Part shown: positions 1-43,936 of the stretch, piece by piece | Position numbering within the stretch: position 1 is the stretch's first letter | Layout: each line of letters begins with the position of its first letter | Origin: Gemmatimonadota bacterium | GTDB lineage: Bacteria; Gemmatimonadota; Gemmatimonadetes; Longimicrobiales; Gaopeijiaceae | NCBI GenBank assembly: GCA_030428885.1 | Contig: JAUIEJ010000013.1 | Coordinates: 1 to 64,000 of the forward strand | Length of the DNA stretch: 64,000 nucleotides | Direction of reading: 5' to 3' | Made by a program: the position numbers and the translations under genes | The notes under the pieces: generated by a model | Told to the model about the DNA's origin: nothing | Seen by the model: the letters and a program-made list of their open reading frames with translations, nothing else | Databases searched by the model: none

Positions 1-488
1 GCCGTCCGATTCGACGTCATCGACACCGTGCACGTCGCCGACGAGCCCGCCGATGCGCAGGCTCCACCCCAGCTCCCGATCTGCCACCCGCTTGAGGGAT
101 TGGCCGTCAGCGTCACGGTCGTTCCGTTCGAGAAGGTCCCTGTGTCGTTCGTCGTGCTCGTGTTCGTCGTGATCCCCGACGGACTCGAACTCACGCTCCC
201 CGACCCGCTCTGGCTGAAGCTCAGCGTCCGGGGCGCCTGCACGAAGTTCACCGATGCCGTCTGATTCGACGTCATCGACACGGTGCACGTCGTAGATGTC
301 CCCGCCGGGACGCATGCTCCGCCCCAGCCGCCGATCTGCCACCCGCTTGAGGGATTGGCCGTCAGCGTCACGGTCGTTCCGTTCGAGAACGTCTCCGTGT
401 CGTTCGTCGTGCTCGTGTTCGTCGTGATCCCCGACGGACTCGAGCTCACACTCCCCGAACCGCTCTGGCTGAAGTTCAGCGTCCGAGG
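1..488 (-). repeat. Two tandem 255-bp coding repeats (85 aa each)
   Basis: The blocks at 1-233 and 256-488 are nearly identical in DNA, with a period of exactly 255 bp, a multiple of three. They encode the two visible InlB-type repeats of the edge lipoprotein. Long stretches, such as the part around 79-150 against 334-405, match base for base including silent positions. This implies recent duplication or gene conversion. More copies may lie outside the window. Confidence 0.85.
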
Positions 489-908
489 CCCGCTATCGTT
501 CCCGCTTTCACGGACGTTGAAGGACCAAGGGGCAGACCAATTTCCCCACTCGCTTGGAGATCCCGCCCGAACCCGCCAATGGTACGACCCCTCACCCAAC
601 CCACTGTCCAACTGATAGCTCGGCGCGTCGACTTCAGCGGAGACTATCGGCTGTGAGAAGTCCGACGTTGCGGAGATTTGAATAGCGTACCGGGTCGCGC
701 CAGTCGTGGAAGCCCATCTGAAGGCCGGACTTGGGCCAACGTCCTGGCCCACCGGCGGGTTCGCTGGACCACTTGGAGGTGTCAGGTCGGGTCCCGGCGA
801 AGACAGAGGCGGATCGACCATTGTGCCATCGCCGCACGCAACGAGTAGAACTGATGCCACGATGAATCGAACGAGCCTAGCCGTTGACCGAACCCTAGCT
901 GCTCTCAT
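1..908 (-). CDS. Lipoprotein with Ig/FN3-like domain and InlB-type repeats (C-terminus beyond window)
   Basis: The frame stays open from the ATG at 908 to the window edge, so about 302 N-terminal codons are visible. The start MRAARVRSTARLVRF is basic, a hydrophobic stretch follows, and a lipobox LVAC puts the lipidated Cys at residue 25. This predicts an envelope-anchored surface or periplasmic lipoprotein. Residues about 45-135 look like an Ig/FN3-type sandwich (GATRYAIQIS, GSYHWRVRAG). From about 140 come two near-identical 85-residue units carrying GSGSVSSSPSGI, NGTTVTLTANPSSGWQIG, WGGAC and CTVSMTSN, the pattern of divergent InlB B-repeats (Flg_new_2-like) with a Cys pair per unit. Such proteins are usually adhesive or structural; the specific role is unknown. 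No Shine-Dalgarno is visible. It diverges from the SARP-type gene at 1251. Confidence 0.8.
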   Translation of the reverse strand, partial: MRAARVRSTARLVRFIVASVLLVACGDGTMVDPPLSSPGPDLTPPSGPANPPVGQDVGPSPAFRWASTTGATRYAIQISATSDFSQPIVSAEVDAPSYQLDSGLGEGSYHWRVRAGSPSEWGNWSAPWSFNVRESGNDSGPRTLNFSQSGSGSVSSSPSGITTNTSTTNDTETFSNGTTVTLTANPSSGWQIGGWGGACVPAGTSTTCTVSMTSNQTASVNFVQAPRTLSFSQSGSGSVSSSPSGITTNTSTTNDTGTFSNGTTVTLTANPSSGWQIGSWGGACASAGSSATCTVSMTSNRT

Positions 909-1250: not shown

Positions 1251-4200
1251 ATGGCCCGGTTCGAGCTGCGGGTTCTCGGATCGCCACACATCCTGGATCA
1301 CGACGGCAACGTCGTCGATCTGCCCCTGGGGAAGCCCCTGGCGGCCCTGTGCTTTCTGGCGGTGGAGCCGACGGCGGTGCGTCGGTCCGATCTGGCGCGC
1401 CTGCTATGGCCGTCCAGCACCGAGTCCCGGGCGAAGGCGTCGATCCGTCAGGCGCTCTGGCTCATTCGGAAGCACACCGATCCCGACATCGTCATCGAGA
1501 GCAACGGCTCTCTCGAGGTGAACCCGGAGATCCTCGCGACCGATCTGACCGCCTTCGAGTCCGACCTGGTCTCCGGGCGATTGGAAGACGCCCTGGGCCG
1601 CTGGTCGGGCGGGCCCTTCGTCGGATTCGCGATTCCCGACGCCTCCGCGTGGCTGAAATGGGCCGACGGAGTTCGCAGCCGATGGGAGGCCCACCTGGGC
1701 CGCGCTCTCGAAGACCGGGCGGCCGCCACAGCCGGCGCCGAGCGAGTCGCGTGGCTCACGAGCGCGGTCGACGTGCGTCCCTACCGCGCTGAGACCTGGC
1801 TCGGCCTCGTCGAGGCACACGTGGAACTGCGGGACCTCGACCACGCCGAGGCCGCCCTGACCCAGCTTCGAAGCGTGAGCGACCCGGAGGACCACGAGGT
1901 CGTGGCCGAAGCCGAGGCCCGGGTCCGACTACTCCGACGATCCGCGTATGACGATCCGTCCGACCGCCTCGTGCCCGACTTCGTGGGCCGTGCGCCCGAG
2001 TTCGCCGAACTCATGGCGGCCTGGCGATCCGCTCGTTCGGGGCGTCCGCGGGTCGTCGGGCTCACGGGGCCCGCCGGCATCGGAAAGAGTGCGCTCTCCG
2101 CCGAAACAGTGCGGCATTGCGAGGCCGACGGCGCCGGAGTGGTGGAGACCCGGGCCGTCCGTGCCGAAGCGCGCTTGGAGTACGGCGTCTTCGCGAGCCT
2201 CGTCGCGGAACTCCTTCGGCGCCCCGGAGCCGCCGGGACCAGCTCCGCGTCGGCCCAGGTGCTGAAGAGCCTGGTCCCCTCGGAAAGCTCAACGGCACCC
2301 GTGGCCTCCCCCCGCGCCACGGTCCTGGCCGATGCGTTCGCCGACCTCCTCGCGGCAGTCGCCGACGAGACGCCGCTGCTGCTTCTCGTCGAAGACGCCC
2401 ACTGGATCGACACCGCATCGGCCGTGGTGCTGCTCCGAGCCGTTCGGAGTCTCCGCAGCACCCCGGTCTTGATGCTCTGGACGTGTCGGACGGAGGGAGC
2501 CGAGAACACCGGCTTCGCCGCCCTGACCGATGCCGCTTCCTCGGCAAGCGCCACGCTGCTCGAGCTTCCACCTCTCGGGCCGGCGGAAGTGGCCGAGATG
2601 GTGGGCCTCATGCTCTCCGGGAGTGACCCGGGCACGTTCGATGATCTGGCTCATCAGCTTCACCGGCGGTCCGAGGGCGTGCCCCTCCACATCGTGGAGC
2701 TCCTCCAGGATCTCCGGGACCGAGGCGCGATCGGAGTGGATAGCAGCGGACGATGGAGGCTGGCGGACGACATCGGCCCTACCCTGGAACTTCGCGAGAG
2801 CCTCGAGGAGACCCAGGGAGACCGCGTCGAACGGCTTACGCCGGAGGCCCGGCGGCTGGGCGTGCTCTTGTCTCAGGCCTTCGACCCTCTGACGGTGGAC
2901 GCGCTCCGCCTTCGCTCGGCTCTCACGGCTGATCAATGCACCGAGGCCCTGAGCCAGTTGTTGGTTCGGGACCTGGCGCGCTGGACGCGGGACGACCGGG
3001 TGGTGATTGCCCACGATTCTCTGCGGGCGGTGTTCCAGGCGGACAGCCCATCGACGCCGTCGGGGGCGACCGCGAAGCGATGGCGCTGGTGGAGTACAGC
3101 CGCCGGGATCACCCTGTTGGTGGCCGGGGCCTGGGCGGTTCGGGGCGGTGCCGCGGAAGAGGGAGCCGCGGCCTACGGCGGGGGCACACTGATGCTCCGC
3201 AGTGCGGACTCGATCCTGATGCTTCAACCAGGCGTCGAGCCAGGTCAGCTCAACCGGGTGGGGAGCCACCCCATCCCGGACGGCATCGGACTGAGGACGG
3301 CAATCCAGCATCGAAACGGCGAGCTTTGGATGGGGGGGACAGCCCTCTCCGACGTCGTCGCCCCCCCAGCGGCGGTGGTCTGGAACGGATCCAGGCTCGA
3401 CACGTTGATCACGGTGGCGGGTGATGCGTCTGCGGCGATCCTGCGACCGCAGGGGGACGCGGCACTCTTGCATGTCCAGAATCCGGACACTTCGACCTAC
3501 CGGTCCATGGTGGTCCGGATGGACCTCGAGAGTGGTGACACGACGGTCCTCGCCGCGGGGTTGGGCAGCTACTCCGCCGCTGGCTGGGCTCCCGACGGCC
3601 AGAGCGTCATCGTCCGCGTGGACAACACCGTCGATTCCATTCGCGTCGTCGACCCATCCGGCTGGGTGCTCGACCAGTTCGAAGCCCCCATCGCCGAGCT
3701 CCTCGGCGCCGAGCCCTGCGGCGAAGGAGTCTTGGTGTGGGGCACCCCACCGGCCCAGCCGATCCGCGCATGGCTGTGGCACCCCAGCGAGAGCGGGCCC
3801 ACCCAGATCGACTTGGGAGTGGCCCAGTTCGCAGGGGCTACGTGCTCTCCTGATGGCTCCATGGTGGCGACGGTGGAGGGCAACCCTACCGAGGAGTATC
3901 TCGTAGTTCGCGACCTCGATGGTGCCGAGTTCGAGCGGTTCAACCTGACCGGGCGTGGAGTGCACTGGGTCGAGTGGCAGCCACCCATTGAAGCCGCACC
4001 GGTGTTGGTCGCCGTGGGGGCGACTTCGGTTGAGCTGGAACGGGGGGCTCGCCGACGGGTCGAGGCCTTCGCCCTCGACGCCGATGGCCGACGGACAACG
4101 GCCCAGCTACGGTGGTCATCCTCGGACCCGGCGGTTGCGTCGGTCCGCGCCGACGGCACCATCGTCGCGAACCGAACGGGCCGCGCCACAATCGCCGCTC

Positions 4201-4865
4201 ACGTTGACGGGTGGCTCTCCGATTCGCTCTTGGTCACCGTCGTGCAGAGGAACCGGATCGACGAGCTCGTGTTCGTCGACTCCTTCCCCGACTTCGATAC
4301 CATTCGATGGAATCCCGTCGGTGACTCCACGCCCGTGCCGATACGCATCGGGGCCCGACCGGCGCTTCGACTGAACGGCAATGGACGGTATCGCGACGCC
4401 ATCGACACGACCGAACGCCTCGACTTCGGCCCGGGGGGGACGGTCGAGATCCTCTTCCGCCTCCGCGACTTCACCCGCATCGATCGGCAGCGAGTGCAGC
4501 TTTGCCTGGACGATCGACATCGAACCCACGGGGTGCCGGCTCGGTTCACATGCGTCACATGGCCCGCCGCCGAGGGATTCGACTTCGACCCTGACGCGAT
4601 TCTGCTCCAGGTCTCCGGTGGCACCCTCGGGAAGATCCCGCTCGGGGGTCGGGTCCTTCCAGGGGAATGGAACACCCTTGCGATCCAGGTGCGGGCGGAC
4701 GGCACGGTCTCGGCCGTCGCCAATGACTCCATCCTCGCGGTGCACCCCGCACCCCTGCGGATGGAACCCGACGCGCGATTCCATATTTCCATTGCACATT
4801 CCGCCGTAGACACCGAGCTCCTCCTGCGAGAAGTGTCGGTCTGGTCCGAGGAGCGGTATCGATGA
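1251..4865 (+). CDS. Membrane-anchored SARP/BTAD regulator fused to NTPase and extracytoplasmic sensor-like region (copy 1)
   Basis: 1,204 residues. The start MARFELRVLG was chosen over a GTG 48 bases upstream because GGAG lies 8 bases before it and the SARP domain begins there. Order: winged-helix DNA-binding domain (1-90), BTAD helical repeats (about 90-235), and an AAA/STAND-like NTPase with Walker A GPAGIGKS (273-280) and Walker B LLLLVED (376-382). One hydrophobic helix follows at about 611-633, preceded by Lys/Arg/Trp residues as expected for N-in topology. Beyond it come a TolB/PD40-like propeller (WAPDGQS), a Big_2-like Ig domain (about 926-1000; RWSSSDPAVASV) and a LamG-like C-terminus. 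This resembles a CadC-type one-component sensor with an NTPase inserted. Its stop overlaps the next start (ATGA), so the two paralogues are probably translationally coupled. Ligand and targets are unknown. Confidence 0.85.
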   Translation: MARFELRVLGSPHILDHDGNVVDLPLGKPLAALCFLAVEPTAVRRSDLARLLWPSSTESRAKASIRQALWLIRKHTDPDIVIESNGSLEVNPEILATDLTAFESDLVSGRLEDALGRWSGGPFVGFAIPDASAWLKWADGVRSRWEAHLGRALEDRAAATAGAERVAWLTSAVDVRPYRAETWLGLVEAHVELRDLDHAEAALTQLRSVSDPEDHEVVAEAEARVRLLRRSAYDDPSDRLVPDFVGRAPEFAELMAAWRSARSGRPRVVGLTGPAGIGKSALSAETVRHCEADGAGVVETRAVRAEARLEYGVFASLVAELLRRPGAAGTSSASAQVLKSLVPSESSTAPVASPRATVLADAFADLLAAVADETPLLLLVEDAHWIDTASAVVLLRAVRSLRSTPVLMLWTCRTEGAENTGFAALTDAASSASATLLELPPLGPAEVAEMVGLMLSGSDPGTFDDLAHQLHRRSEGVPLHIVELLQDLRDRGAIGVDSSGRWRLADDIGPTLELRESLEETQGDRVERLTPEARRLGVLLSQAFDPLTVDALRLRSALTADQCTEALSQLLVRDLARWTRDDRVVIAHDSLRAVFQADSPSTPSGATAKRWRWWSTAAGITLLVAGAWAVRGGAAEEGAAAYGGGTLMLRSADSILMLQPGVEPGQLNRVGSHPIPDGIGLRTAIQHRNGELWMGGTALSDVVAPPAAVVWNGSRLDTLITVAGDASAAILRPQGDAALLHVQNPDTSTYRSMVVRMDLESGDTTVLAAGLGSYSAAGWAPDGQSVIVRVDNTVDSIRVVDPSGWVLDQFEAPIAELLGAEPCGEGVLVWGTPPAQPIRAWLWHPSESGPTQIDLGVAQFAGATCSPDGSMVATVEGNPTEEYLVVRDLDGAEFERFNLTGRGVHWVEWQPPIEAAPVLVAVGATSVELERGARRRVEAFALDADGRRTTAQLRWSSSDPAVASVRADGTIVANRTGRATIAAHVDGWLSDSLLVTVVQRNRIDELVFVDSFPDFDTIRWNPVGDSTPVPIRIGARPALRLNGNGRYRDAIDTTERLDFGPGGTVEILFRLRDFTRIDRQRVQLCLDDRHRTHGVPARFTCVTWPAAEGFDFDPDAILLQVSGGTLGKIPLGGRVLPGEWNTLAIQVRADGTVSAVANDSILAVHPAPLRMEPDARFHISIAHSAVDTELLLREVSVWSEERYR

Positions 4866-7800
4866 GCAGCGGCTCCGCCCCTTTCACCCTCCACCTCCTC
4901 GGCTCGCCTCGGGTCGAGGGCCTGAACGGCACCGCCGAACTCCCCCTTGGAAAACCCCTGGCCCTGCTCTGCTACCTGGCGCTGGAGCCCTCAGGCGTCC
5001 GCCGTTCCGATCTGGCACGCATGCTCTGGCCCTCCTCTCCCGAGTCCCGGGCCAAGGCCTCCATCCGCCAGGCCCTCTGGCTGATCCGCAAGGAGACCGA
5101 CGGCGACATCGTTCGCGAGGAGCAGGGCGAGCTCACCCTCGACGATACCGTGGTCCAGACCGACCTGGCGGCCCTGGGAGGGGACCTCGCCCGGGGCGAC
5201 CTCGCCGAGGCCCTCGAGAGGTGGAACGGGGGTCCCCTGAGCGGTTTCAGCGTTCCCGACGCCCGACCGTGGCTCGCCTGGGCAGACACGGTCCGAGGCC
5301 GTTGGGAGAGCCAGGTGGGACAGGCCGTCGAAGACCGGGCCGCGGCTGCCGAGGGCCACGAGCGGGCCGACTGGCTCCGCCGGGCCGTCGAGGTGCGTCC
5401 CTACCGGGTGGAGGCATGGCTCGCCCTCGTGCAGACACTCGTGGACCTGCGCGACGCGGAGGGCGCGGACGAGGCCATGCTTCAGCTTCGCCAGGTCGCC
5501 GACGAAGACGACATCGAACTCGTCGGTGAGGCGGAGCGGCGAATCCGGCTCCTTCGGCGTACGGCATACGGCGACCCGGGCGAACGTCTCGTACCCGAAT
5601 TCGTGGGCCGGTCGGAGGAGTTCTCCGCCCTCATGCAGGCGTGGCGAAGCGCGCTTTCCGGCAGGAGTCGGGTGGTGGGCATCGTGGGAGAGGCCGGCAC
5701 CGGCAAGACCGCGCTGGCCGCCGAGACCCTGCGGTACGCGGAGGTGGACGAAGGGCAAACCCTCGAGGTCCGGGCCGTCCGCGCCGAGGCCGGGCTCGAC
5801 CTCGGCGTCGTGGGCAGCGTCGTCGCCGACCTCATTCGGCGTCCGGGCGCGGCAGGCACCAGTCCAGGGTCGGCTCAGGCCCTCCGCAGCCTGGTTCCCT
5901 CCGAGGGCGACGCCGTAGCACCCGTTCCCCAGTCCACGACCCTCGCGGACGCCCTCGCCGACCTCCTGGACGCCGTGTCCCACGAGGCCCCGGTCCTGTT
6001 GGTCGTGGACGACGCACATTGGATCGACGAGGCCTCGGCCATCGTTCTCCTCCGGGCGGCGCGCCTGCTCCGCGGATCCCGGGTCCTGATGGTCTGGACC
6101 TGCCGTCCGGGAGAGCACGGGACTCCGAACCGGGGGCTCACCGCGCTGCGAAGCGCCGTGGAGGAAGGCTCGGGCGCCGTGGTGGAGCTCGGTCCGCTGA
6201 CCCAGAGCGAGGTCCGGGAATTGGTGGCGCTGCTCCTCCCGGACTCGGACCCCGAGGTGCTCGCCAACCTCGCCACCCGGATCCACGTCGCGTCGGGTGG
6301 TTCGCCCTTCCACATCGTTGAGATCCTCCAGGTGCTCCGAGGCCAGGGGCTCCTGGGACTGGACGAAGACGGGCTCTGGCTGCTCGCCGAAGACACCAGC
6401 GCCGAGGCCGTTGAGCTGCCCTCTTCCCTCCCCGACGCCCTCGCCCTTCGAATCGAGGAACTGTCGGACCAGGCACGCCGGGTCGGCGCGGAGTTGGCGG
6501 TGGAGGGCGGGCCCCGGGAGCCCTCGGCGCTTCAGCGGTCCGGCGAATTGAGCCGCACCGAGGTCGAAGCGGCCGTGCGCACGCTCCTCGATCGGGGCCT
6601 GGTGCGGTGGACTCGGGACGACCGCCTGGAACTCGCCCACGAAAAGCTGGCGGAGGCGTTTCGAGCCCGCGCCTCGGACGCTACGAGGGGAGCCGTGCGC
6701 CCCCATTGGGGACGATGGATGATCGCGGCGACGGCGGTCTCGATCGCAGCCGCAGCTCTCTTCCTCCTTCGGCCCCGATCCGCCCCTGCTCCCCATTTCG
6801 GTGGCGGGACACTCTGGGTGATGGAAGGACGACAGTGGGTCGGGCACCGATTCCGGGGGGGCAACGACCCGTGGGAGCGGGTGGATTCGATCCGCATTCC
6901 CGACGGCGTCCAGTCCCTCAACCCGCGGGAGAGGATCCGCCTGCCCGACGGTACGTGGGATGTCGTGATCGCCGGGTACTCCGCCAGCGATCAAGAGGAA
7001 GCACCCGACGCGATCCTCGTTCGGAACGGGCAGGTGGACACGGTCTACTCGAGCCCCGGCGATGACGCGTTGAAGCTCATCGGACCGGACGGGCGGACGG
7101 CCCTGCTCCACGTGGAGAACCCGGACTCGTCCCGCTACCGATCCATGCTCGTGCGTGTCGACCTGTGGGGTCGCCGGGATACGACCGTGCTGTCGGCGGG
7201 CGAAACAGGCAGCCACGCCCTCGACTGGAGTCCAGATGGTCGGATTCTAGCCGTTCGAATCGACGCGCCCTGGGACACCTTGGCCCTGATCAGCCCCTCC
7301 GGTCGTCGCCTGGCCACGCTCCCGTCTCCCGGCCCCCATCTTCGGGATGCCGTGCCTTGTGGGCGCGACACCTACCTCCTTTCATCGATTCCCGCGGCGG
7401 AACTGACTCGCCACGACCTCTGGCGGCGGTCGACGGGGGAATTGACACGGTTCCGACCCCGCTACGTTCCACACCAGCCCCCCGTGTGCTCGCCTGACGG
7501 AAGCGCCTTCGCCTACGTCACGGGCGACGGCGACGGCGGTGGTCGGCTCGTCGTGCAGGATCTCGAGGGTGTGGTCCTGTCAAACGGCCCAGTCGTGCCT
7601 CGACGGACTCCACTTCTATGGATTCCTGAACGCGTTGGTGCCCCGGGGCGCGTGGAGATCATCGCAGCCGACGATACTCTGGATCGGGGGAGCCGATCGA
7701 CCCCTGTGGCTCGCGTATACAACGCAAGCGATCGGGTCATGGAACGGGAGGTCCGTTGGGAGTCGGCCCAGCCAGAGATCGCCTCAGTGAATGCGGACGG

Positions 7801-8587
7801 CACGGTGACCGGCAATCGCCCGGGTCAGGCCACACTGCGAGCCGTCGTGGACGACTGGCTCCGTGACTCGGTGTCGATCCAGGTTGTGGCGGCGCCTGGG
7901 GACACAGCCGTCCTCGCTCTTGCAGACTCCTTTCCGTCGATCGACACCACCCGCTGGATCGTGCTTGGTGACCCGCCCCCCGCAGCCCTGTTCGACGACG
8001 ACGCCCGTCCGGCCCTGGACCTCACGGGCGACGGGCGCTACTCCGACGGGATCGCGTCCTGGGAGGAGTTTGCCGTCCCGGGCGGCGCCACACTCGAAGC
8101 CACCTTCCGACTCACAGAATTCGCTCGACCGGATCGGAATCGGATCGTCGTATGCCTGGTTGACGGAGATCCCCCTCCCCGCCCCGGCGTATTCAGCGAC
8201 TGGACTCTGCGCCAGGAGGCCTGCGTCATCTGGCCGGCCGCCAGCGGCCCCGCCGACATCGACACGACGGCGATCACTCTGTCGTCGGCCGGGCAGCCGG
8301 TTGGTGCGGTCCCCATCGGATCCCGACTGCGATCCGGCCGCTGGGAGCGTTTGGGCGTCCAGCTTCGCGCCGACGGGCGGTTCTCGGTCACCGTCAACGA
8401 CACGGTGGTGGCCGTCCATCCCCTCGGCGTGGCAAACCAGCCCGACACTCGGTGGCGAATGGTGGTCCGTGGCGCCGGCGTCGACACCCGCCTCCTCCTC
8501 CGGGACGTCACGTTGTGGCGGGAGGAGCGGTACGGTGTCCTCGAGGAGCCTCCGAACGATGGTCCGGCGGGCGGGGGTCCCCCGTAG
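4862..8587 (+). CDS. Membrane-anchored SARP/BTAD regulator fused to NTPase and extracytoplasmic sensor-like region (copy 2)
   Basis: 1,241 residues, a full-length paralogue of the preceding gene with the same domain order. The SARP winged helix and BTAD share PLGKPLA, RRSDLAR and SRAKASIRQALWLIRK with copy 1. Walker A is GEAGTGKT (276-283) and Walker B LLVVDDAHWID. One membrane helix lies at about 619-640, after an Arg/Trp-containing flank. The outer part again holds DWSPDGR (PD40-like), a Big_2-like unit (RWESAQPEIASVNADG) and a LamG-like domain containing DGRYSDGIASW. DNA-binding and NTPase parts are better conserved between copies than the outer parts, suggesting different signals feeding similar outputs. 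The start overlaps the upstream stop by 4 bp. The tail ends in a Gly/Pro-rich stretch. The two proteins could act as a heteromeric sensor; that is inference. Confidence 0.85.
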   Translation: MSSGSAPFTLHLLGSPRVEGLNGTAELPLGKPLALLCYLALEPSGVRRSDLARMLWPSSPESRAKASIRQALWLIRKETDGDIVREEQGELTLDDTVVQTDLAALGGDLARGDLAEALERWNGGPLSGFSVPDARPWLAWADTVRGRWESQVGQAVEDRAAAAEGHERADWLRRAVEVRPYRVEAWLALVQTLVDLRDAEGADEAMLQLRQVADEDDIELVGEAERRIRLLRRTAYGDPGERLVPEFVGRSEEFSALMQAWRSALSGRSRVVGIVGEAGTGKTALAAETLRYAEVDEGQTLEVRAVRAEAGLDLGVVGSVVADLIRRPGAAGTSPGSAQALRSLVPSEGDAVAPVPQSTTLADALADLLDAVSHEAPVLLVVDDAHWIDEASAIVLLRAARLLRGSRVLMVWTCRPGEHGTPNRGLTALRSAVEEGSGAVVELGPLTQSEVRELVALLLPDSDPEVLANLATRIHVASGGSPFHIVEILQVLRGQGLLGLDEDGLWLLAEDTSAEAVELPSSLPDALALRIEELSDQARRVGAELAVEGGPREPSALQRSGELSRTEVEAAVRTLLDRGLVRWTRDDRLELAHEKLAEAFRARASDATRGAVRPHWGRWMIAATAVSIAAAALFLLRPRSAPAPHFGGGTLWVMEGRQWVGHRFRGGNDPWERVDSIRIPDGVQSLNPRERIRLPDGTWDVVIAGYSASDQEEAPDAILVRNGQVDTVYSSPGDDALKLIGPDGRTALLHVENPDSSRYRSMLVRVDLWGRRDTTVLSAGETGSHALDWSPDGRILAVRIDAPWDTLALISPSGRRLATLPSPGPHLRDAVPCGRDTYLLSSIPAAELTRHDLWRRSTGELTRFRPRYVPHQPPVCSPDGSAFAYVTGDGDGGGRLVVQDLEGVVLSNGPVVPRRTPLLWIPERVGAPGRVEIIAADDTLDRGSRSTPVARVYNASDRVMEREVRWESAQPEIASVNADGTVTGNRPGQATLRAVVDDWLRDSVSIQVVAAPGDTAVLALADSFPSIDTTRWIVLGDPPPAALFDDDARPALDLTGDGRYSDGIASWEEFAVPGGATLEATFRLTEFARPDRNRIVVCLVDGDPPPRPGVFSDWTLRQEACVIWPAASGPADIDTTAITLSSAGQPVGAVPIGSRLRSGRWERLGVQLRADGRFSVTVNDTVVAVHPLGVANQPDTRWRMVVRGAGVDTRLLLRDVTLWREERYGVLEEPPNDGPAGGGPP

Positions 8588-12161: not shown

Positions 12162-14906
12162 TCAGTAGCGGATCGAGAACCCGACGTTGAACGAGCGCGG
12201 CAGGCCGATGAAGATCTCGGCATCGTCGGCGTCGTGGTCTCCGTCGAACCCGTTGAAGCTCGAGTTGTCGACGGCGTCCTGCACGTACATCTGGTCGAAC
12301 AGGTTGAAGACGTTCACGAAGAGGCGCACGTCTCCGCCCCGGGCACCCGGCAGCAGGTTGCTGACGTTGTACGACCCGTGGAGGTCGAACACGCTGTAGC
12401 CCGGCGCCTGCCAGGACTGGGTCGTGTCGTCCGGATCGGTCCGGCTGAACGGATCGTACTCGGCCCAGTGCTTGCCGAAGAGCTTGCTCACGAGCTGGAG
12501 CGACGCTCCGGCGGCCGGGAAGACCGACGCCGCCAGGGCGAACTGCGTCTGGGGCGCGTCACCGACCTTCAGGCCGTCGAGATAGAAGTCGAACGTCTGG
12601 ACCTCACCCGAGCCCTCGTCGGGGCGGTAGGTGCCCGACACGTCGTTGATGTACTCCCACTTGCCCAGCGACGCCGCGGCGTCGAACCGGAAGAGGGGGC
12701 TGGGCTGGAAGGCGCCCGACGCCTCGATCCCCATGTGGCGGGCATCGAGTCCCAGCAGGTTCACGAGACCGTCGGTGTTGTTGCCGTCGATGTTCCGGAC
12801 GAACTGGTTCCGGGTCCGGTCCCGCCACGTGGTGTGGTAGGCGTTGATGTCGAACGACACGCCGCTCTCCAGCGAGCGGTACGTGAAGCCGCCCTCGAAC
12901 GAGAGGAAGGTCTCGTTGGTCGGGTCGGGGTTCTTCACACCCGCGCCGTCGTCGATGACGCCGTCGAAGATCGGCACCTTGGAGACGTAACCCAGGTTCG
13001 TGTAGGTCGACCACTCGTCGGTCAGGTTGTAGACCGCACCACCCTTCACCTGGTAGCCCGTCAGGTTGCCCGACTCGAGCTTCAGGGTCTCGCTCGTGTT
13101 GACCTCGTCCCGCACGAAGAAGTTCTCGTACGAGTAGGAGATCTGCGACAGGCCGAACATCCCGAAGATCGAGCCCTTCTGGCTCGACTTCTCGGCCTGG
13201 AAGTGACCGCCGACCCAGTCCACCGTGTTCTGGTCGTTGTAGTCGATGCGGTCGCCGTAGGTGCGCTGCTGCGCGCCCTCGAACTCGTTGTCGTCATCGA
13301 TCCAGAACGACCCGCCCAGCAGGTCCCGGATGTCCCGGTAGTGGCTGATGGTGGCGGTCCGCCAGTCGACGCCCACCTCGGTGGTGAAGCCGTTGGCGAA
13401 GTCCTTCCGGAGCTTCGAGATCACGCCCCAGGTGTCCTGGCTGTTCACCGACGAGCGCAGGATACCGCCCGAGCCGATGTCGCTGGCCTGGTTGATGGCG
13501 ATGGTGGCGTCCCAGTCGGGATAGCGCTGCGTGTAGTCGTAGATCCACTGCACGCGACCGGCGTCCCGATTCTCGATGGTGCCCGAACCGCCGCCGTCGC
13601 CGCCCGAGTAGTACCCCACGGTGGAGAGGGTGAGGCCGTTCCCGAAGTACGAGTACCAGTTGAGGTTGGCCTGGGGCTTGTGGAAGTAGTTCTCCCGCTC
13701 CTGCAGGTAGCCGTCGAGCTGACGGTCGAAGCGACCGGTCTCGGGACCCACCGAGGCGTACTGCTGCTCGCGGTACGACGTGCTCACGGGCCCGATGTTC
13801 GGGCTCCAGCGCTTGCCGTCGATCTCGGGGGCCTGGGGGAAGTCGCTGAGGGCGGCCGGCTCATACCCGTCGAGGCCCGCGGCGAACTCCTGGTCGATGG
13901 TCCCGGCATTGAGCTTGTAGAGGTTCTGCCCGTGGGTCTGGGGCGCGCCCACGATGTAGAACTCGAGGCGGTTGGTGGGGCTCGCCTGGAACGACGAGGC
14001 CAGGTAGTAGGACCAGGCGTCGGTGTAGGCCCCGATGTACTGGCCGTCACCCGTCTTCTTCGACAGCACGCCCGTGATGGCGAACCGACCGATCTCACCG
14101 GTGGACGCGGTGGCCGTGGTCTTGAGGAACGACCCGCTGCCGAACTCCTGCTTGAGCTGCACCCCACCGGCCTGAGCCGTCGGGTCGGTGATCACGTTCA
14201 TGGTACCACCGATGGAGGGCGTGGCCAGGTTGACGGCCGACAGCCCCCGCTGGACCTGGATGCTGGTCGAGGCGTCGCCCAGACCGTCCCAGTTGGACCA
14301 GTACACCCACCCGTTCTCCATGTCGTTCACGGGCACGCCGTTGATCATGACGGCCGTGTTGCGCTGGCTGAAGCCCCGGACGTTGATCCGGGCGTCACCG
14401 GCGCCTCCACCCTGCTGGGTGGAATAGACGCTGGGCGTGGTGTTGAGGACCAGGGGCAGGTCGCGGGAACCGAGCTGGTTCTGGAGCTGCACCTTGTCCA
14501 CGTCGGTGAAGGCCACGGGCGTCTTCCGCTCCGTGGCCCGGGAGGCGAACACCTCGAGGCCGGCGATGGAGACCGCCTCGCTGGTCATCTCGAAGTCGAC
14601 GGTGCTGGCCTGGCCGGCGCTCACCATGACGTCGGCGCGGGTCTGGCTGGTGAAGCCGATGATCTGCACCTGAACCGTGTACCGGCCCGGGCGCAGGTTC
14701 GGAATGGTGTACCGACCCTGTGCGTCGGCCAGGGCGCCCGACTGGGCACCCGACGACGCCTCGGTCACGACGACCTGGGCGCCGGAGAGGGTCTGCCCCT
14801 CCGACGTCACCCGGCCCTCGATGGACCCGGGCGCCTGAGCGGCCAGGGGGGACCCCCCGAACGCCAGCAGCGCCGCGAGAACCGCGGGCAGACAGAGCTT
14901 TCTCAT
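12162..14906 (-). CDS. TonB-dependent outer-membrane receptor with carboxypeptidase-regulatory-like domain
   Basis: 914 residues. Energised by TonB-ExbB-ExbD, such receptors import a scarce ligand across the outer membrane; the ligand here is unknown. A signal peptide (MRKLCLPAVLAALLAFGG, cleavage near AAQA) precedes a carboxypeptidase-regulatory-like Ig domain (about 27-110; GRYTIPNLRPGRYTVQV). The plug domain follows (about 125-240; DARINVRGFSQRNTAVMING, PSIGGTMNVIT). The rest is a beta-barrel ending SIRY, the aromatic C-terminus typical of such barrels. The ATG at 14906 was chosen because AGGAGG stands 6 bases upstream and the signal peptide starts there. No SusD-like partner is adjacent. 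The leader carries a terminator-like hairpin just before the ribosome binding site. Confidence 0.9.
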   Translation of the reverse strand: MRKLCLPAVLAALLAFGGSPLAAQAPGSIEGRVTSEGQTLSGAQVVVTEASSGAQSGALADAQGRYTIPNLRPGRYTVQVQIIGFTSQTRADVMVSAGQASTVDFEMTSEAVSIAGLEVFASRATERKTPVAFTDVDKVQLQNQLGSRDLPLVLNTTPSVYSTQQGGGAGDARINVRGFSQRNTAVMINGVPVNDMENGWVYWSNWDGLGDASTSIQVQRGLSAVNLATPSIGGTMNVITDPTAQAGGVQLKQEFGSGSFLKTTATASTGEIGRFAITGVLSKKTGDGQYIGAYTDAWSYYLASSFQASPTNRLEFYIVGAPQTHGQNLYKLNAGTIDQEFAAGLDGYEPAALSDFPQAPEIDGKRWSPNIGPVSTSYREQQYASVGPETGRFDRQLDGYLQERENYFHKPQANLNWYSYFGNGLTLSTVGYYSGGDGGGSGTIENRDAGRVQWIYDYTQRYPDWDATIAINQASDIGSGGILRSSVNSQDTWGVISKLRKDFANGFTTEVGVDWRTATISHYRDIRDLLGGSFWIDDDNEFEGAQQRTYGDRIDYNDQNTVDWVGGHFQAEKSSQKGSIFGMFGLSQISYSYENFFVRDEVNTSETLKLESGNLTGYQVKGGAVYNLTDEWSTYTNLGYVSKVPIFDGVIDDGAGVKNPDPTNETFLSFEGGFTYRSLESGVSFDINAYHTTWRDRTRNQFVRNIDGNNTDGLVNLLGLDARHMGIEASGAFQPSPLFRFDAAASLGKWEYINDVSGTYRPDEGSGEVQTFDFYLDGLKVGDAPQTQFALAASVFPAAGASLQLVSKLFGKHWAEYDPFSRTDPDDTTQSWQAPGYSVFDLHGSYNVSNLLPGARGGDVRLFVNVFNLFDQMYVQDAVDNSSFNGFDGDHDADDAEIFIGLPRSFNVGFSIRY

Positions 14907-15440: not shown

Positions 15441-18400
15441 TTAGTTCTGCGCGACGGCAACCCGAATGTCACCGACGTCGCCGCCACCCAGGTCACCGTG
15501 CACCAGAATGGTGTAGGTGCCCGTATCGGCAGCAGTGAACGTCGCGACCTCGTCGTTCTCGTCGAAGTTGTCCCAGGCGCGGGTGACGAACTTCCCGTCC
15601 GGGCCAACCACGATGAATCCGGGGTTGACGACATCACCGACCACGAAGTCCGTGGACCCCGTGATGGTGTAGTTGGTGCCCGCAGTCAGCGACACGGTCA
15701 CCATCTGCGCCTCGATGCCCACGCTGCCGGTCAAGCCGGTGGCAGTACCGTCACCGGGCTGCACGAGGCAGTCGGTTCCGGCCAGGGTCACCTGCGTCGA
15801 CCCGCCAACCGCGACGGACGACACGGCACAGATCTGTGCGTTGACCTCACCAATCCAGGTCGCGCCCGTGTACACGGTCGTAACCGTGGTACCCGTGGCC
15901 ACCCAGGCGATGAAGTTCTGCTCCGTCAGACCCAGCGACTCCTCGTCGGCGACGACGAGCTGGTTCCGAATCGGGTTCACGCGCAGCGAGCCGGGAACAT
16001 CGCTCGCGGCCTGCACCAGGTACCCGGTGTTGGGTCCGGTGGTGAACTGGAACCGACCCTGGTTCGCACCAGGCGTGGTGGCAATCGTACCGTCCGTAAC
16101 CAGCGCGGTAGCGACGGCGACACCAGCCGGGTTCGAGGTCTCATCCCAGATGACGGCATGGCCGTCGTTTCCGTTCGTGGCCGAGCCCTTCACGATGAAG
16201 AACCAGCCGTTCTTGCCGAACGTACCGTTGTCGGCCGGGATGTCCGCCGGATCGATGATGTCACCGGGGATCGGGTTGGTCAGCGTGTACTCGTACCACC
16301 GCCCGAAGGCACCCGTACCGAGGTCGGACACGCGGAGCGTGAACGCGCTGTTGTCCAGCAGACGCGCACGACCGGCCGTGTCGAGGTAGTACATGTTCAC
16401 GTCGGTGTTCGGATCGATGTTCGGGACGAACGTCGCCGTCTGCCCCTTGAACGTGATCCGGGGACGCCCGCCGGAATCGAGGTTGAAGATCCAGCTGGAG
16501 TCGTCGTCCTGGTTCCCGAAGATTCCATCGGGGCCCGAACCGTCGTCAGCGTTGCCGCCGACGCCGTCCGCACCCGGACCGACCGCACCCAGAGCGGGCA
16601 CGAAGTTGGTCGCGATGGTTCCCGGAGCCAAGCAGGTCGGGATCGAGGTCTGGACGAACGTGTTGAACTGCGTGTTCACGAGACCATACGCGGACGAGTG
16701 GTCCCAGGTCCGCCACCGCGGACCACGCGGGCGGTGCACGCGCGGCTCGGTGCCACCGAGCGGATCGACGTCAGCCACGACGGCCGTGCTGGCCGAAGCG
16801 ACGTTCGCCAAGCCGTACTCGTCGGCCCGCACCAGGCAGCCGATGAACTCGGTGGTGATGGCGAGGTTACCGCCGAGGAAGATGTCCTGCGACCCGAAGG
16901 CCGTGTGGGCAACGTTCTCGAGCGGAAGCTGCAGCGTGGTCTCCTCGAACGGCACACCGTCCACATCGGCCGGCGGAACCTGCGAGCCGGGCACGAAGTT
17001 CGGGTGGCTGGCCGCCGAGAGGCTGGCGTACAGCTGGAGCGACAGGATCGAGTTAAAGTCGAACGAGAAGTCCGACATCTTCAGATCCGCGTTGTCCAGG
17101 TTCTCACCGAAGAACGAGTACGGATCGTTCAGATCGAAGGTCACGACCGTCGGCATCTGAACGTTACCCACGTTCGGAGCGTCGTGGTCGGCGATCCCCT
17201 CGCGCGGCGACATGTCCTGCCGGACGTTACCGGCGCGGTCATAGCTCCGCATGTTGTGATCGCGGTACCCATCGTGGGGACCGGGCACGTCCATGGTGGC
17301 CACGTAGGCCCGGAACGGCGTGCCAACCGTGTGAACCGCCACACGACCGGTCTCGGACACGTCGGAGAACGTGTCGGCACCGGCCGGCGTCACATCACTC
17401 TGGCCGTCGAACGCGAAGCCGAGAACGATGGCCGATCCACCCGGAACCACCGGCTGGAGCGTGAAGCCCCAACGCGTGGTGGTGGTGCTGAAGCAGGCGA
17501 GCTCACCCGAGCCGCAGCCCTGCTCGTAGTCCTCGACGACCACACCGGCCACACCGGAGAACCCGTTGCCGCGGTCCGTGGTGTACCCAGCGTACGACCC
17601 GCGCGCCTTACCGAGCACGAACGGAGCGACACCCGTGGTGGTGCTGTTCCAGACCTCGTTACCGAAGGTCGTGTAGTTGGCACCGCCCCGGAGATCCAGG
17701 TCGTAGAAGTCGTCGTCGTACGTGTTGTACTGCGTGCCGGCAACCGTCGGATCCACCAGCGTCAGGCTGTTGTCCGGATCGGTCGTACCGGCGGCGTCGG
17801 AGAAGATCGGCTCGCGGCCGTCGACACCGAACAGGATGTAGTTCGAGGTGTTGATCCAGTTACCGAACTGGTCCCAGTGACGGCCGGCCATGGCGTAGTC
17901 CGTCTCCGTGTCGGAGAACGGCGTGCCGTCGGCCGAACCCGCGTCGGTCAGACCGGGCGAGTCCGTCTCGGGGGGCAGATCCGCACCCACGACCGCATCG
18001 ATGGTCGAGAAGCTCGACGCAGACACGACGCTGGACACGGAAGCACCACCACCGGCGATGGAAGCCGACACGTCCGGACCCGCGATGTAGCTCAGGTGCG
18101 GGTTCCCGGCGGGGTTACCGATACCGAACAGGTCGGCACCGGGGGCGAACGCCGCGTTGGCGTCGTAGCCCACCCACACACCGCCCGTGGGGGCGTTGCC
18201 GTTCTTGTCGGTGGCCGGGTAGACGAACGGATGGTCGTCGGGCGAGGCCTGGACACGATCATCGATGGGATCGTCCCACTTCAGCCAGCCGAGGTAGACG
18301 TCCGAAGCGTCGTTCCAGGTGCCGAGACCCGTCTTCGAGAAGCCGTTGACGCCGATGAAGGCGTTGGCCGGGTGGTCGATGTACGAGTTGACCGACCCGT

Positions 18401-20039
18401 TCACGGGGCTCTCGTTGTCGATACGCAGCACGTCGTTCAGGACGCCGGTACCGGACTGGAGGTCCTCGTTGAAGAACTCGATGTTCTTGATGTTGTTCAC
18501 GCCGGCAGCGGCGTTGAACCCAGGCCCGAACTGACCGAAGGCCGTCTTGGTCTGGATGATGATGTTACGCGCACCGATCAGACCGGTGTTGACGTCGTTG
18601 ATGGACGCGTAGCAGGCCGAACCAGCGGTGCTGGTCGTGCCGCCCGCCTCACAGAACGTGAACGTGAAGGTACCGTCCGCGTTCGGCGTGGTGAGCTCGG
18701 CTCCGCCGATCCCCAGATCCGACCCGAAGCGGAAGGCGTCGAACGCCAGGTTTCCGCGCTGCAGGAGCGGGTTGTTGGGGTCGAACACCTGCGAGTAGAT
18801 GATCGGGTACACCGTGACGTAGATGTCACCCGACAGCCAACGCAGGCCGGTGGAGTTCTGGATGATGAAGTTCGGGAAGGGCTCACCCGTCGTCGGATCA
18901 TTCCAGTCCGTGTTGTCGGCCACGACGCCCAGGTTGATGGCATCGCGGTTCTCGAGCGTCACGTCGACGATGGCGTTGAAGCCCTCTTCGAACTCGGCGA
19001 CGGTCACACGACCATGGATCTCGTAGTCGCCGTTGATGAAGATCGGGTGGTACGGGCGCATGGCGTCCGCGCCGATTCCATCGAACATGTCGGTCGAGGT
19101 GTTGAGCACCTTGATCGACGGATGCGAGCCGTCCTTGCGGCGGAACGCATCGGAGTTCCAGGAGAACGTCACCTCGGTGTCGTCGTTGCTCCCGTCCTGC
19201 ATCTCGGGCGCGACGGACGCGAAGCGCTGCTCAGCGATCTTCCAGATGGTCCCGGTGGACTTCTGGAGGACCCACAGCTCCACGGTCTGGAGGTCGTTGC
19301 CGTTGTCTTCGACCTGGACGGTCACGTCGACACGGCCGACGATCGAGTCGGGGTCCACGGGCAGCGTGGTGGCCGCCGACGTGATCCGCTCGATGGAAAC
19401 CTCCGGAGGCACGATCTCGGTGTCACCCACGAAGTTCACCTGGACAGCCTGGCCGGTGTTGACCGAGACGTTCTGGGTGGTGGGGGTGTCATCGAAGCCC
19501 TCGGCGGGCGGGTTCGGCATCGAGACCGTGTAGTCGCCGGACTTGAGGCCGGAGAAGGTCACGTTGCCCTGGGCGTTGGTGCCCAGCGTCTGGTCGACGC
19601 CGTCGCCCTGGAGGCGAACGTTCGTCACGACGCCGGAGCCGTCGGCCCGGGTCACCGTCACGAGGATCGAGGCGGTGCGCACGAACTGACCGTTGAAGTC
19701 GGCCGTGGCCACCTGACCATCCGTGGCGATGGAAACACTCTGCGTGGTGTTGGAGAACACGACGTCACCCGGGATGCTGCTCAGGGTGACGGAGTAGTTC
19801 CCCTCGACCACGTTGGCGAAGGAGAACGAACCATCCGAACCGGACGTCGTCGACTGCGACGACGCGCCGGCCAGCTGGACCGTTACTCCCGCCAGTCCCT
19901 GTCCCTCTACGGAAACGGTACCGGAGACGGTACCGACGGCCGTTTCGTCGACGGGGGTGATGTTGTCATCACCCTCGTCACAGGCCGCGAGAGGTACGAG
20001 GACCAGCGCCGCCATGAGGAGCCTGTGGAGCTTTCTCAT
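15441..20039 (-). CDS. Very large surface lipoprotein with carboxypeptidase-regulatory-like domains and a C-terminal PPC-like domain
   Basis: 1,532 residues. Signal MRKLHRLLMAALVLVP with lipobox LAAC (Cys20) predicts a lipid anchor. Tandem carboxypeptidase-regulatory-like Ig units follow (about 40-210; GTVSGTVSVEGQGLAGVTVQL, then GNVTFSGLKSGDYTVSMP). A long Asp/Asn/Gly/Thr-rich central region contains many calcium-site-like DxDxDG-type turns. The last 90 residues (FVVGDVVNPGFIVVGPDGK, then GTYTILVHGD) resemble a bacterial pre-peptidase C-terminal domain. No catalytic motif was recognised, so a structural, adhesive or substrate-binding role is likely. The first 12 bases of the gene (ATGAGAAAGCTC) match those of the receptor gene. 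An alternative ATG at 20054 would add five residues. Neighbouring the TonB receptor, it may belong to the same surface system. Confidence 0.75.
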   Translation of the reverse strand: MRKLHRLLMAALVLVPLAACDEGDDNITPVDETAVGTVSGTVSVEGQGLAGVTVQLAGASSQSTTSGSDGSFSFANVVEGNYSVTLSSIPGDVVFSNTTQSVSIATDGQVATADFNGQFVRTASILVTVTRADGSGVVTNVRLQGDGVDQTLGTNAQGNVTFSGLKSGDYTVSMPNPPAEGFDDTPTTQNVSVNTGQAVQVNFVGDTEIVPPEVSIERITSAATTLPVDPDSIVGRVDVTVQVEDNGNDLQTVELWVLQKSTGTIWKIAEQRFASVAPEMQDGSNDDTEVTFSWNSDAFRRKDGSHPSIKVLNTSTDMFDGIGADAMRPYHPIFINGDYEIHGRVTVAEFEEGFNAIVDVTLENRDAINLGVVADNTDWNDPTTGEPFPNFIIQNSTGLRWLSGDIYVTVYPIIYSQVFDPNNPLLQRGNLAFDAFRFGSDLGIGGAELTTPNADGTFTFTFCEAGGTTSTAGSACYASINDVNTGLIGARNIIIQTKTAFGQFGPGFNAAAGVNNIKNIEFFNEDLQSGTGVLNDVLRIDNESPVNGSVNSYIDHPANAFIGVNGFSKTGLGTWNDASDVYLGWLKWDDPIDDRVQASPDDHPFVYPATDKNGNAPTGGVWVGYDANAAFAPGADLFGIGNPAGNPHLSYIAGPDVSASIAGGGASVSSVVSASSFSTIDAVVGADLPPETDSPGLTDAGSADGTPFSDTETDYAMAGRHWDQFGNWINTSNYILFGVDGREPIFSDAAGTTDPDNSLTLVDPTVAGTQYNTYDDDFYDLDLRGGANYTTFGNEVWNSTTTGVAPFVLGKARGSYAGYTTDRGNGFSGVAGVVVEDYEQGCGSGELACFSTTTTRWGFTLQPVVPGGSAIVLGFAFDGQSDVTPAGADTFSDVSETGRVAVHTVGTPFRAYVATMDVPGPHDGYRDHNMRSYDRAGNVRQDMSPREGIADHDAPNVGNVQMPTVVTFDLNDPYSFFGENLDNADLKMSDFSFDFNSILSLQLYASLSAASHPNFVPGSQVPPADVDGVPFEETTLQLPLENVAHTAFGSQDIFLGGNLAITTEFIGCLVRADEYGLANVASASTAVVADVDPLGGTEPRVHRPRGPRWRTWDHSSAYGLVNTQFNTFVQTSIPTCLAPGTIATNFVPALGAVGPGADGVGGNADDGSGPDGIFGNQDDDSSWIFNLDSGGRPRITFKGQTATFVPNIDPNTDVNMYYLDTAGRARLLDNSAFTLRVSDLGTGAFGRWYEYTLTNPIPGDIIDPADIPADNGTFGKNGWFFIVKGSATNGNDGHAVIWDETSNPAGVAVATALVTDGTIATTPGANQGRFQFTTGPNTGYLVQAASDVPGSLRVNPIRNQLVVADEESLGLTEQNFIAWVATGTTVTTVYTGATWIGEVNAQICAVSSVAVGGSTQVTLAGTDCLVQPGDGTATGLTGSVGIEAQMVTVSLTAGTNYTITGSTDFVVGDVVNPGFIVVGPDGKFVTRAWDNFDENDEVATFTAADTGTYTILVHGDLGGGDVGDIRVAVAQN

Positions 20040-40544: not shown

Positions 40545-41795
40545 CTAGTCCATCTGCCGACGAATGAACGTCGGAATGTCGAGTTCGCCGATCTCGGTCG
40601 ACGACACCGGTCGGCCCGGCATGCGACCGAGCCTGGGCGCCGGCTCCACGGAGAACGACGCTCCCCCTCCCACCGCGACCTGCCGCTGCATCTGCGGCAC
40701 GGCGGTTTCGGCGATCTGCGTTTCGATGTCCATCTGCTTCACCTTGGACACCGCAGGCCGCTGGGCCGTTGTCCGGGCCGGCTGGGGGGCCGGACGCCGG
40801 AAATCGTGGTTGATGACCTGCCGCTCCTCGCCGGGCGAATCGAAGCCCGTGGCGATGACCGTAACCCGGACCTTCCCCTCGAGTTCGGGATCGTGCACCG
40901 CGCCGAAGATGATCTCGGCTTCGTCGCCGGCCTCTTCCTGAATGATAGTGGAGATCTGGGTGACCTCGTCAATGGCGAGGTCCATGCCTCCGGTGATGTT
41001 GATCAGGACGCCCTTGGCGCCGGCGATGGACACGTTGTCCAGGAGCGGCGAGGAGATGGCCTCCTGGGCCGCTTCCTGGGCCCGGTTGTCGCCCTCGCCG
41101 AAGCCCGACCCCATGAGGGCCGGCCCGCGGCACGACATGATGGTCCGCACGTCGGCGAAGTCGACGTTCACCTCACCCGACACCCGGATCAGGTCGCTGA
41201 TGCCCTGGGTGGCGTGGAGGAGCACCTCGTCGGCCTTCTTCAGGGCGTCCTTGAACGTCGTGCCCTTGGGCACCACCGCCAGCAGCCGGTCGTTGGGCAC
41301 CACGATCACAGTATCGACCGACCGCTTGAGCTCCGCGAGCCCCTGCTCGGCCTGCCGCAGCCGCTTCTTGCCCTCGAAGGCGAAGGGCCGGGTGACGATG
41401 CCGATGGTGAGGGCGCCCATCTCCCGGGCGATCTCGGCCACGATGGGGGCGGCACCGGTTCCGGTGCCCCCGCCCATGCCGGCGGTGATGAACACCAGGT
41501 CGGCGCCGTCCAGCGCCTTGCGCACGTCCTCCTGGGACTCGTGCACGGCCTGACGACCGATCTCGGGGCGGGCTCCGGCGCCCAGTCCCCGGGTGAGCTT
41601 CTTGCCGATCTGCATGGTGACCTGGGCCAGGGAGCCCTTCAGGGCCTGGGCGTCGGTGTTCATGGAGATGAACTCCACGCCCTCCAGCTCCTCGTCGACC
41701 ATGCGGTTGACCGCGTTGCCGCCGGCGCCGCCGACGCCCACCACCTTCATGGCGGCGTTCTGGGTCGGGGTCTCCTCGAATTCGAAGATCATCAT
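40545..41795 (-). CDS. ftsZ: Cell division GTPase FtsZ
   Basis: Tubulin homologue forming the Z-ring. 416 residues. Contains [11 protein letters not shown], the tubulin signature GGGTGTG (108-114), NTDAQAL, and the T7 loop region [12 protein letters not shown] with its catalytic Asp. The C-terminal linker (about 320-400) is followed by the conserved tail [11 protein letters not shown] for FtsA and ZipA-type partners. AGGAG stands 7 bases before the first ATG. It is separated from ftsA by 133 bp, the largest gap in the dcw run. Confidence 0.98.
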
Positions 41796-41928
41796 TCTCT
41801 CGCTCCTGCGTTCGTTCGGGACGGGGGATCGGTGGGATGGGCGAGGCGCCGGGGTGGCGCCCGCATTCGTCGCAGGGGCGGATCGGGTCCGGCCCGGGGG
41901 CGAGCCGCCGGCGTGAAGGAGCGGGACA

Positions 41929-43161: not shown

Positions 43162-43165
43162 GGCG

Positions 43166-43936
43166 TCACCCGGTTCCCAGGCCCACGACGACCTGATCGT
43201 CCCACCGCACGTCGATGAAGCGGGGGGTGGCCGTGGAGTCGTTTTCGAGTTCGATGCCCAGCACCGAGAGGCCGGCGTCGATCCGGGCAGGATCCACCGG
43301 GAGGCGCATCTTCACCCGGAGGCTCGGCGAGGAGCCCCAGAACGCCGTGAACGAGCCGTCGGCTTCCTCCCGCAACTCGGAGAGGCGGCCGTGGAAGGCC
43401 GGATCCTGCCGGAGGGCGGCCACGGCCTCGACCTGGCGGCGGAGACGGTGGGGCGGAAGCACGCCGTCTTCGGCGCCCTCGGCGGGCCGGAGCCGCACCA
43501 CCGGGAGGTCGAGATGCACCCGGCTCGGATCCACCGGGAGGATGCGGCCCTCGATGTCCACGGGCTCCAGGACGGGGGTGGCCACGAAGGCCACGGGCTC
43601 CCGCTCCTCGATCTCCAGCACGAGGGTCGACGGCAGGCGGCGGCGGACCCGCACGTGGCGCACCACGGGGTGGGCCGCCACCGCGGCCTCCCACGCCGAC
43701 GGGTCGTCCCACACCGAGGCCGAATCGGGCACGCCGGCCCGCTCCAGGATCTCCCGGTCGTCCACGAGTCGCGCCCCCTCCACCCGCACCGTGGCGACGT
43801 CGAAGAGGGGGACCCTGGCCAGCATGCCGGGGAGGGACCGGAACCCGGCCACGGCGGCCCCGACGACCACGACCGCGGCCAGGGACTTGAGCACCACCGG
43901 CCCGCGGCCGTGGAGGGAGAACGGGGGACTACGCAT
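43166..43936 (-). CDS. ftsQ: Cell division protein FtsQ (DivIB)
   Basis: Bitopic divisome protein, partner of FtsB and FtsL. 256 residues. A short cytoplasmic N-terminus, one membrane helix (about 15-33; LKSLAAVVVVGAAVAGF), then a POTRA domain (about 45-115; FDVATVRVEGARLVDDREIL) and the beta-domain (EEREPVAFV, DIEGRILP). Its ATG overlaps the murC stop by 8 bp. ftsB is not seen. Confidence 0.9.
   Translation of the reverse strand: MRSPPFSLHGRGPVVLKSLAAVVVVGAAVAGFRSLPGMLARVPLFDVATVRVEGARLVDDREILERAGVPDSASVWDDPSAWEAAVAAHPVVRHVRVRRRLPSTLVLEIEEREPVAFVATPVLEPVDIEGRILPVDPSRVHLDLPVVRLRPAEGAEDGVLPPHRLRRQVEAVAALRQDPAFHGRLSELREEADGSFTAFWGSSPSLRVKMRLPVDPARIDAGLSVLGIELENDSTATPRFIDVRWDDQVVVGLGTG

Follow-up and report, generated by a model that had tools for sequence, protein, structure and literature searches.

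Characterised STAND transcription factors such as MalT and AfsR are cytoplasmic, and we know of no energy-using switch in the characterised one-component membrane regulators, such as CadC and ToxR. Under the control of its sensor, MalT alternates between an ADP-bound monomer and an ATP-bound oligomer (PMC10427625). In AfsR, the SARP domain is restrained by the NOD and TPR modules, and ATP binding activates the protein without a change in oligomeric state (PMC10936776). A survey of transmembrane regulators makes no mention of NTPases, BTAD, or SARP domains in its main text (PMC10269533).

Two tandem genes in a 64,000-nucleotide stretch of a Gemmatimonadota genome (the window) encode proteins, P0001 and P0002, that resemble parts of several of these systems. 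Like CadC and ToxR, they are predicted to have an N-terminal winged helix, one membrane helix, and a periplasmic C-terminal sensor, but where CadC-type regulators lead from the winged helix into the membrane helix with no NTPase, these proteins place a BTAD and a STAND ATPase between the DNA-binding domain and the membrane. Like AfsR and other large SARPs of Streptomyces (SARP-NOD-TPR), they have a SARP module followed by an adjacent STAND/NOD ATPase (Z 16.5, residues 6 to 234). However, in place of the arm and TPR sensor of AfsR (PMC10936776), P0001 and P0002 have a membrane helix and a predicted periplasmic exterior, and they differ from the soluble large-SARP plan of NOD followed by a TPR sensor in that the C-terminal half is all-beta after the membrane helix. 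They are also unlike MalT, which senses maltotriose in the cytoplasm through a repeat-type sensor and carries its DNA-binding domain at the C terminus (PMC10427625). By prediction, both are transmembrane transcription regulators in the sense of a DNA-binding domain combined with one or more membrane helices (PMC10269533), and they are probably inner-membrane receptors that cross the membrane once and activate transcription directly, with a SARP output, a STAND switch, and a periplasmic sensor.

Tandem paralogous genes

1251 to 4865, plus strand: P0001, first receptor (1,204-aa ORF; full-length homologue of P0002)
4862 to 8587, plus strand: P0002, second receptor (1,241-aa ORF)

The first-pass annotation, made from the sequence alone, had described two tandem ORFs with an ATGA overlap and full-length homology implying duplication, and both descriptions were exact. 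The ATGA at 4862 to 4865 is common to the two ORFs (a 4-nt overlap on the same strand), and the products align end to end with 46 to 47% identity. Because of this overlap and an RBS-like GAGGAG 5' of the P0002 start, translational coupling of P0001 and P0002 is likely, in line with the coupled expression proposed earlier.

Domain-HMM searches and structure prediction, which the same annotation had proposed as checks, placed AAA_16 and Big_2 above the Pfam cut-off in both proteins, with the remaining modules of P0002 assigned by fold matches. For structure prediction, the N half of P0002 (residues 1 to 608) was modeled alone (pLDDT 86.5), and the C half (residues 600 to 1241) was modeled apart from it with a moderate pLDDT of 75.

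Pairing did not turn out to be usual. Adjacent copies were found in only 2 of the 17 genomes scored in depth, the source genome and G045 of the same genus, while most genomes were single-copy. In G045, both genes occupy the same locus, with a gap in place of the overlap, and the pair orthologues are only about 48% identical, compared to 62 to 84% for neighboring genes. In a tree, P0001 grouped with the first G045 copy (99/98), and P0002 grouped with the second G045 copy, a third G045 copy, and G042 (95/94). This grouping by position dates the duplication to before these species diverged; on this sequence evidence, the pairing is local and the duplication old.

A SARP output module joined to a STAND NTPase

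1254 to 1949, plus strand: P0001 winged helix and BTAD (SARP output module; limits from alignment to P0002)
4874 to 5569, plus strand: P0002 winged helix (residues 5 to 97) and BTAD (residues 98 to 236); AF2 pLDDT about 90; AfsR/EmbR fold matches
1971 to 3059, plus strand: P0001 STAND NTPase (AAA_16, E 1.9e-22; Walker A GPAGIGKS at residue 273; assigned with motifs)
5591 to 6685, plus strand: P0002 STAND NTPase (residues 244 to 608; AAA_16, E 2.2e-21; MalT/NRC1/Apaf-1 folds; hallmark residues in 27 to 28 of 28 homologues)

Pfam called neither a BTAD nor a winged helix in P0001 or P0002 themselves. The SARP assignment was supported by the predicted fold, in which residues 4 to 234 of P0002 matched the SARP domain of AfsR in its RNA polymerase complex (8k60, Z 16.5; 8hvr, Z 16.4), with EmbR also matching this region (Z 14.4). 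Among 28 homologues, Pfam called BTAD in 16 (best E, 1.6e-10), Trans_reg_C in 2, and PD40 in 5. The fold matches and the BTAD calls describe an OmpR-type winged helix followed by a BTAD, as the annotation had read it.

The NTPase, for which only intact Walker A and B motifs had been claimed, belongs on the basis of motifs and modeled fold to the narrower STAND type. The closest fold to P0002 residues 244 to 608 was that of MalT (8bob, Z 22.2 over 306 residues, 3.4 A), and a sensor-controlled nucleotide switch is expected here too; NRC1 (Z 21.4), Apaf-1 (Z 20.6), and the STAND protein 6mfv (Z 20.4) also matched. Walker A and B, a sensor-1 Arg, GxP, an MHD-like His, and the NBD-HD-WHD fold were all found. 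For example, the G, G, G, and K of Walker A, D384 of Walker B, GxP, and the MHD-like H593 were invariant in 28/28 homologues, and the sensor-1 R415 was kept in 27/28. One correction to the Walker B claim is that the first acid in P0001 is E (LLLLVEDAHW). nSTAND1 (PF20703) had no match in P0001 or P0002 up to E 1 and matched 3 of the 28 homologues (best E, 0.0017). Anti-phage STAND (Avs-like) defense was considered and rejected, as no PADLOC defense model matched up to E 0.01.

Membrane topology and the putative sensor

3090 to 3149, plus strand: P0001 membrane helix (approximate, from alignment; weak hydrophobicity, 1.34)
6713 to 6772, plus strand: P0002 membrane helix (residues 618 to 637; hydrophobicity, 1.84; conserved position; positive-inside bias)
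3156 to 3992, plus strand: P0001 beta-propeller (from alignment; P0002 counterpart a fold match)
4005 to 4265, plus strand: P0001 Big_2 domain (Pfam E, 1.1e-5)
4269 to 4862, plus strand: P0001 concanavalin-like domain (from alignment; P0002 counterpart a fold match)
6782 to 7633, plus strand: P0002 TolB-like propeller (residues 641 to 924; invariant Cys833 and Cys876; TolB fold match)
7649 to 7915, plus strand: P0002 Big_2 domain (Pfam E, 2.4e-8)
7919 to 8536, plus strand: P0002 concanavalin-like jelly roll (residues 1020 to 1225; invariant Cys1098 and Cys1121; fold matches)

A hydrophobic 19-mer lies at the same position in 25 homologues (Kyte-Doolittle, 1.3 to 2.7), with the P0001 segment the weakest of the set compared to the clear segment of P0002. 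AF2 placed a helix at residues 622 to 635 of P0002 with low confidence (region pLDDT about 54), followed in the C half model by nearly all strands. Across the 25 homologues, the mean number of Lys plus Arg per 20 residues was 2.88 before the helix and 0.88 after it, and in 41 wider relatives from the phylum the values were 5.07 and 1.83. Four exterior cysteines were invariant in 14/14 sequences, with a spacing (833/876 and 1098/1121) that suits two disulfides, and the cytoplasmic half had no invariant cysteine. Because of the positive charge on the cytoplasmic side, the restriction of invariant cysteines to the exterior, and the extracytoplasmic type of the folds, the predicted placement of the C-terminal half outside the cytoplasm is fairly secure, and the earlier reading of one membrane helix with an outer C-terminal half was retained, with a weak helix in P0001. 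The window also encodes a TonB-dependent receptor with a Plug domain (12162 to 14906), which implies an outer membrane; in this apparent diderm, the exterior most likely faces the periplasm rather than the outside medium. The exterior had been put at about 570 outer residues; its outer location stands, but its length is about 570 to 620 aa and its likely compartment is the periplasm.

The exterior was also correctly anticipated to be propeller-, Big_2-, and LamG-like. The P0002 propeller matched TolB (Z 19.3 over 259 residues, 3.4 A), and the last ~200 residues matched concanavalin-like folds, with Z scores of 16.0 for beta-glucanases and 15.4 for the lectin domain of Emp46p. An enzymatic (GH16) exterior was considered, since the folds match, but a motif scan showed that the catalytic ExDxxE motif is absent from both exteriors, so binding by the exterior is more likely than catalysis. 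In the close pair G050/G051, the winged helix, BTAD, and STAND modules were 78, 70, and 82% identical, and the propeller, Big_2, and concanavalin-like domains were 36, 44, and 47% identical. Faster divergence of the exterior than of the core is the pattern expected of a sensor. A conserved core with such rapidly evolving exteriors resembles receptor diversification, and the variation could serve to map ligands.

Distribution in the phylum and beyond

Full-length relatives were found in the source genome's own GTDB-style family and in a single genome from a second family. A strong match to profile A1 was present in 146 of 395 genomes of the phylum, mostly covering only the WH-BTAD-STAND core. 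Of 59 core proteins examined, which were the best hits and mostly long frames and therefore do not give an unbiased fraction, 41 had a helix scoring 1.6 or more and, after it, an exterior of 250 aa or longer, 7 had a weaker helix, and 11 had neither or were cut or short. Exterior lengths in these relatives fall chiefly into two classes, of about 600 aa and about 300 aa. PD40 and Big_2 occur together in several, and L098 combines BTAD, AAA_16, PD40, Big_2, and a weak Laminin_G_3 match in one ORF. A few members of 710 to 760 aa have no helix or exterior and represent soluble relatives. The survey of spread suggested by the first-pass annotation therefore found the architecture widespread; judged by predicted domain layout, transmembrane STAND regulators are phylum-wide and not confined to the P0001/P0002 locus.

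Outside the phylum, a Chloroflexota protein (L036) has the same core with no helix seen. A scan of the genome collection with P0002 returned relatives of the core or NTPase only, with no helix after the NTPase in those inspected. A plasmid search left the exterior unmatched and matched the core weakly in 13 records (best, 26% identity). In Lentzea and Streptomyces, most nSTAND1 proteins inspected have a strong helix (2.4 to 2.8) directly after the NTPase, followed by WD40/propeller repeats, and one of these, L157:4431-7208 from Lentzea, has an N-terminal HTH_31. This protein has the same order of DNA-binding domain, STAND, strong helix, and propeller as P0001 and P0002, but its HTH_31 is unrelated, its NTPase is nSTAND1 rather than AAA_16, and its exterior is WD40 rather than a TolB-like propeller with Big_2 and concanavalin-like domains. 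Because Actinobacteria hold this analogous layout, the order appears to be a design that recurs with different domain families. Closer to home, a protein of the source genome (L005, G000:C11:281898) has a similar N-terminal winged helix-BTAD module, a membrane helix, and a PD40 propeller, but unlike P0001 and P0002 has no NTPase.

No description of this architecture or of its actinobacterial parallel was found in the literature searched, coverage of which was incomplete. The suggestion of an undescribed signaling class is to that extent sustained, but the class is not new in kind, as its modules are already known and Actinobacteria have a parallel layout. A transmembrane transcription regulator with a STAND switch is a genuine architecture, widespread in its phylum.

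Proposed mechanism and alternatives

Working from the domains, motifs, helix and orientation, conserved family, and old duplication established by computation, we infer a ligand, nucleotide switch, oligomer, heteromer, and target genes for P0001 and P0002. The N-terminal SARP module would bind promoter DNA and RNA polymerase in the manner of AfsR, and the STAND module would switch with its nucleotide, autoinhibited with ADP at rest and active with ATP. For the periplasmic sensor of propeller, Ig, and concanavalin-like domains, the most likely ligand is a glycan or an envelope protein. By analogy, ligand binding in the periplasm would act through the membrane helix to release the STAND module, relieving autoinhibition and leading to nucleotide exchange and probably to assembly in the membrane, and the activated core would free or cluster the SARP heads on a promoter. 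Assembly may not be the output, since ATP left the oligomeric state of AfsR unchanged. The paralogues, which are probably cotranslated, may respond to related ligands, or the two may combine in a mixed assembly.

Such a family would join membrane one-component regulation with STAND switching. It would raise the question of how one helix can carry a signal from the periplasm to reset an NLR-like ATPase, and it would supply many testable receptors from a phylum that has been little studied. A more tentative proposal, possible at this stage, is that of a large undescribed class whose members, on binding a periplasmic ligand, undergo ADP/ATP exchange and NLR-like assembly across the membrane, with SARP as the direct output; if true, a single polypeptide would serve as membrane receptor, energy-dependent threshold switch, and transcription factor.

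The ATGA overlap and the retention of the pair by positional orthology in two species could also reflect a co-component-like arrangement, an obligate heteromer in which one paralogue binds DNA and the other senses or inhibits. Heterodimeric co-component systems such as VtrA/VtrC provide a precedent (PMC9214523). However, both paralogues carry a full SARP module and the STAND motifs and most genomes have single copies, making such a division of labor unlikely. That regulated proteolysis near the helix, in response to an exterior signal, frees a soluble SARP-STAND half into the cytoplasm is quite unlikely. A PPIase and an M50B protease (HEISH) adjoin a family member in three related genomes, but the source genome has the same PPIase-M50B pair with no receptor gene in the flanks examined. 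Because it is present there without a receptor, it looks like a housekeeping pair, and the neighboring protease was dropped as support for release. Least probable is a soluble regulator in which the hydrophobic stretch is a buried hinge from the STAND module to a cytoplasmic propeller, as in Apaf-1 with its WD40 repeats; STAND proteins with cytoplasmic propellers exist, the P0001 segment is weak, and some relatives in the phylum lack a helix, but nearly all homologues have a clear helix, and the positive-inside bias, the invariant exterior cysteines, and the TolB-like and concanavalin-like folds also count against it.

Genomic neighborhood

3 to 908, minus strand: lipoprotein-like gene with Divergent InlB B-repeats (Pfam E, 1e-11), divergent to the pair and cut by the contig end
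8792 to 10747, plus strand: asparagine synthase-like amidotransferase (Pfam E, 6.6e-96), downstream, with synteny to the pair kept in G045

The divergent lipoprotein-like gene, which begins at 908 and is truncated by the contig end inside a 255-bp tandem repeat, is a plausible candidate for a regulatory target. A guessed heptamer repeat tried as a SARP site gave no match, a result of little weight. A promoter scan upstream of the pair gave a single 9-of-12 match at 884 to 911, which falls within the 5' end of that gene and was set aside. At the G045 locus, another gene stands in place of the lipoprotein-like gene, and the downstream orthologues are the asparagine synthase (75.7% identity), a dehydratase (70.6%), and a repeat protein (68.8%).

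Relatives of the receptor pair

Between receptors at two loci in other genomes (L013 and L015; G050 and G051), identity was 70 to 82% in the cytoplasmic core and 36 to 47% in the exterior. This unusually sharp contrast may stem from exchange of the predicted sensor or from its rapid diversification.

The genome encoding the pair also carries an NTPase-free, CadC-like cousin of P0001 and P0002 (L005:31-1974, minus strand, at C11:281898), which joins a winged-helix/BTAD-like module, assigned via similarity to P0002 residues 1 to 149, to a membrane helix and a PD40 propeller. In Lentzea, three tandem genes (L157:1462-10053, plus strand) each encode nSTAND1 and a membrane helix, with the middle gene (4431-7208) ordered HTH_31-nSTAND1-helix-WD40.

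Gene neighborhoods

In G044, the ORF directly adjoining the receptor gene (L100:13401-14009, minus strand) has a start that by eye resembles an NRPS adenylation domain. In the window, the following minus-strand features were noted:

3-908, minus: lipoprotein-like gene (lipobox VLLVACG) with Divergent InlB B-repeats, divergent from the pair and truncated by the contig end within a 255-bp tandem repeat that spans 1-489 with 90% matches
12162-14906, minus: TonB-dependent receptor-like protein with a Plug domain, absent between the same neighbors in G045, a congeneric genome carrying this locus
15441-20015, minus: secreted-looking 1,524-aa protein with carboxypeptidase-regulatory and SpaA/SdrD_B-like folds
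~40545-56649, minus: long gene run that, by eye, looks like a cluster for division and cell-wall functions (ftsZ, ftsA, mur genes, mraY, ftsW, mraZ)

Because the G045 counterpart of the secreted-looking protein has 1,303 aa and is 69% identical, its repeat number is possibly variable.
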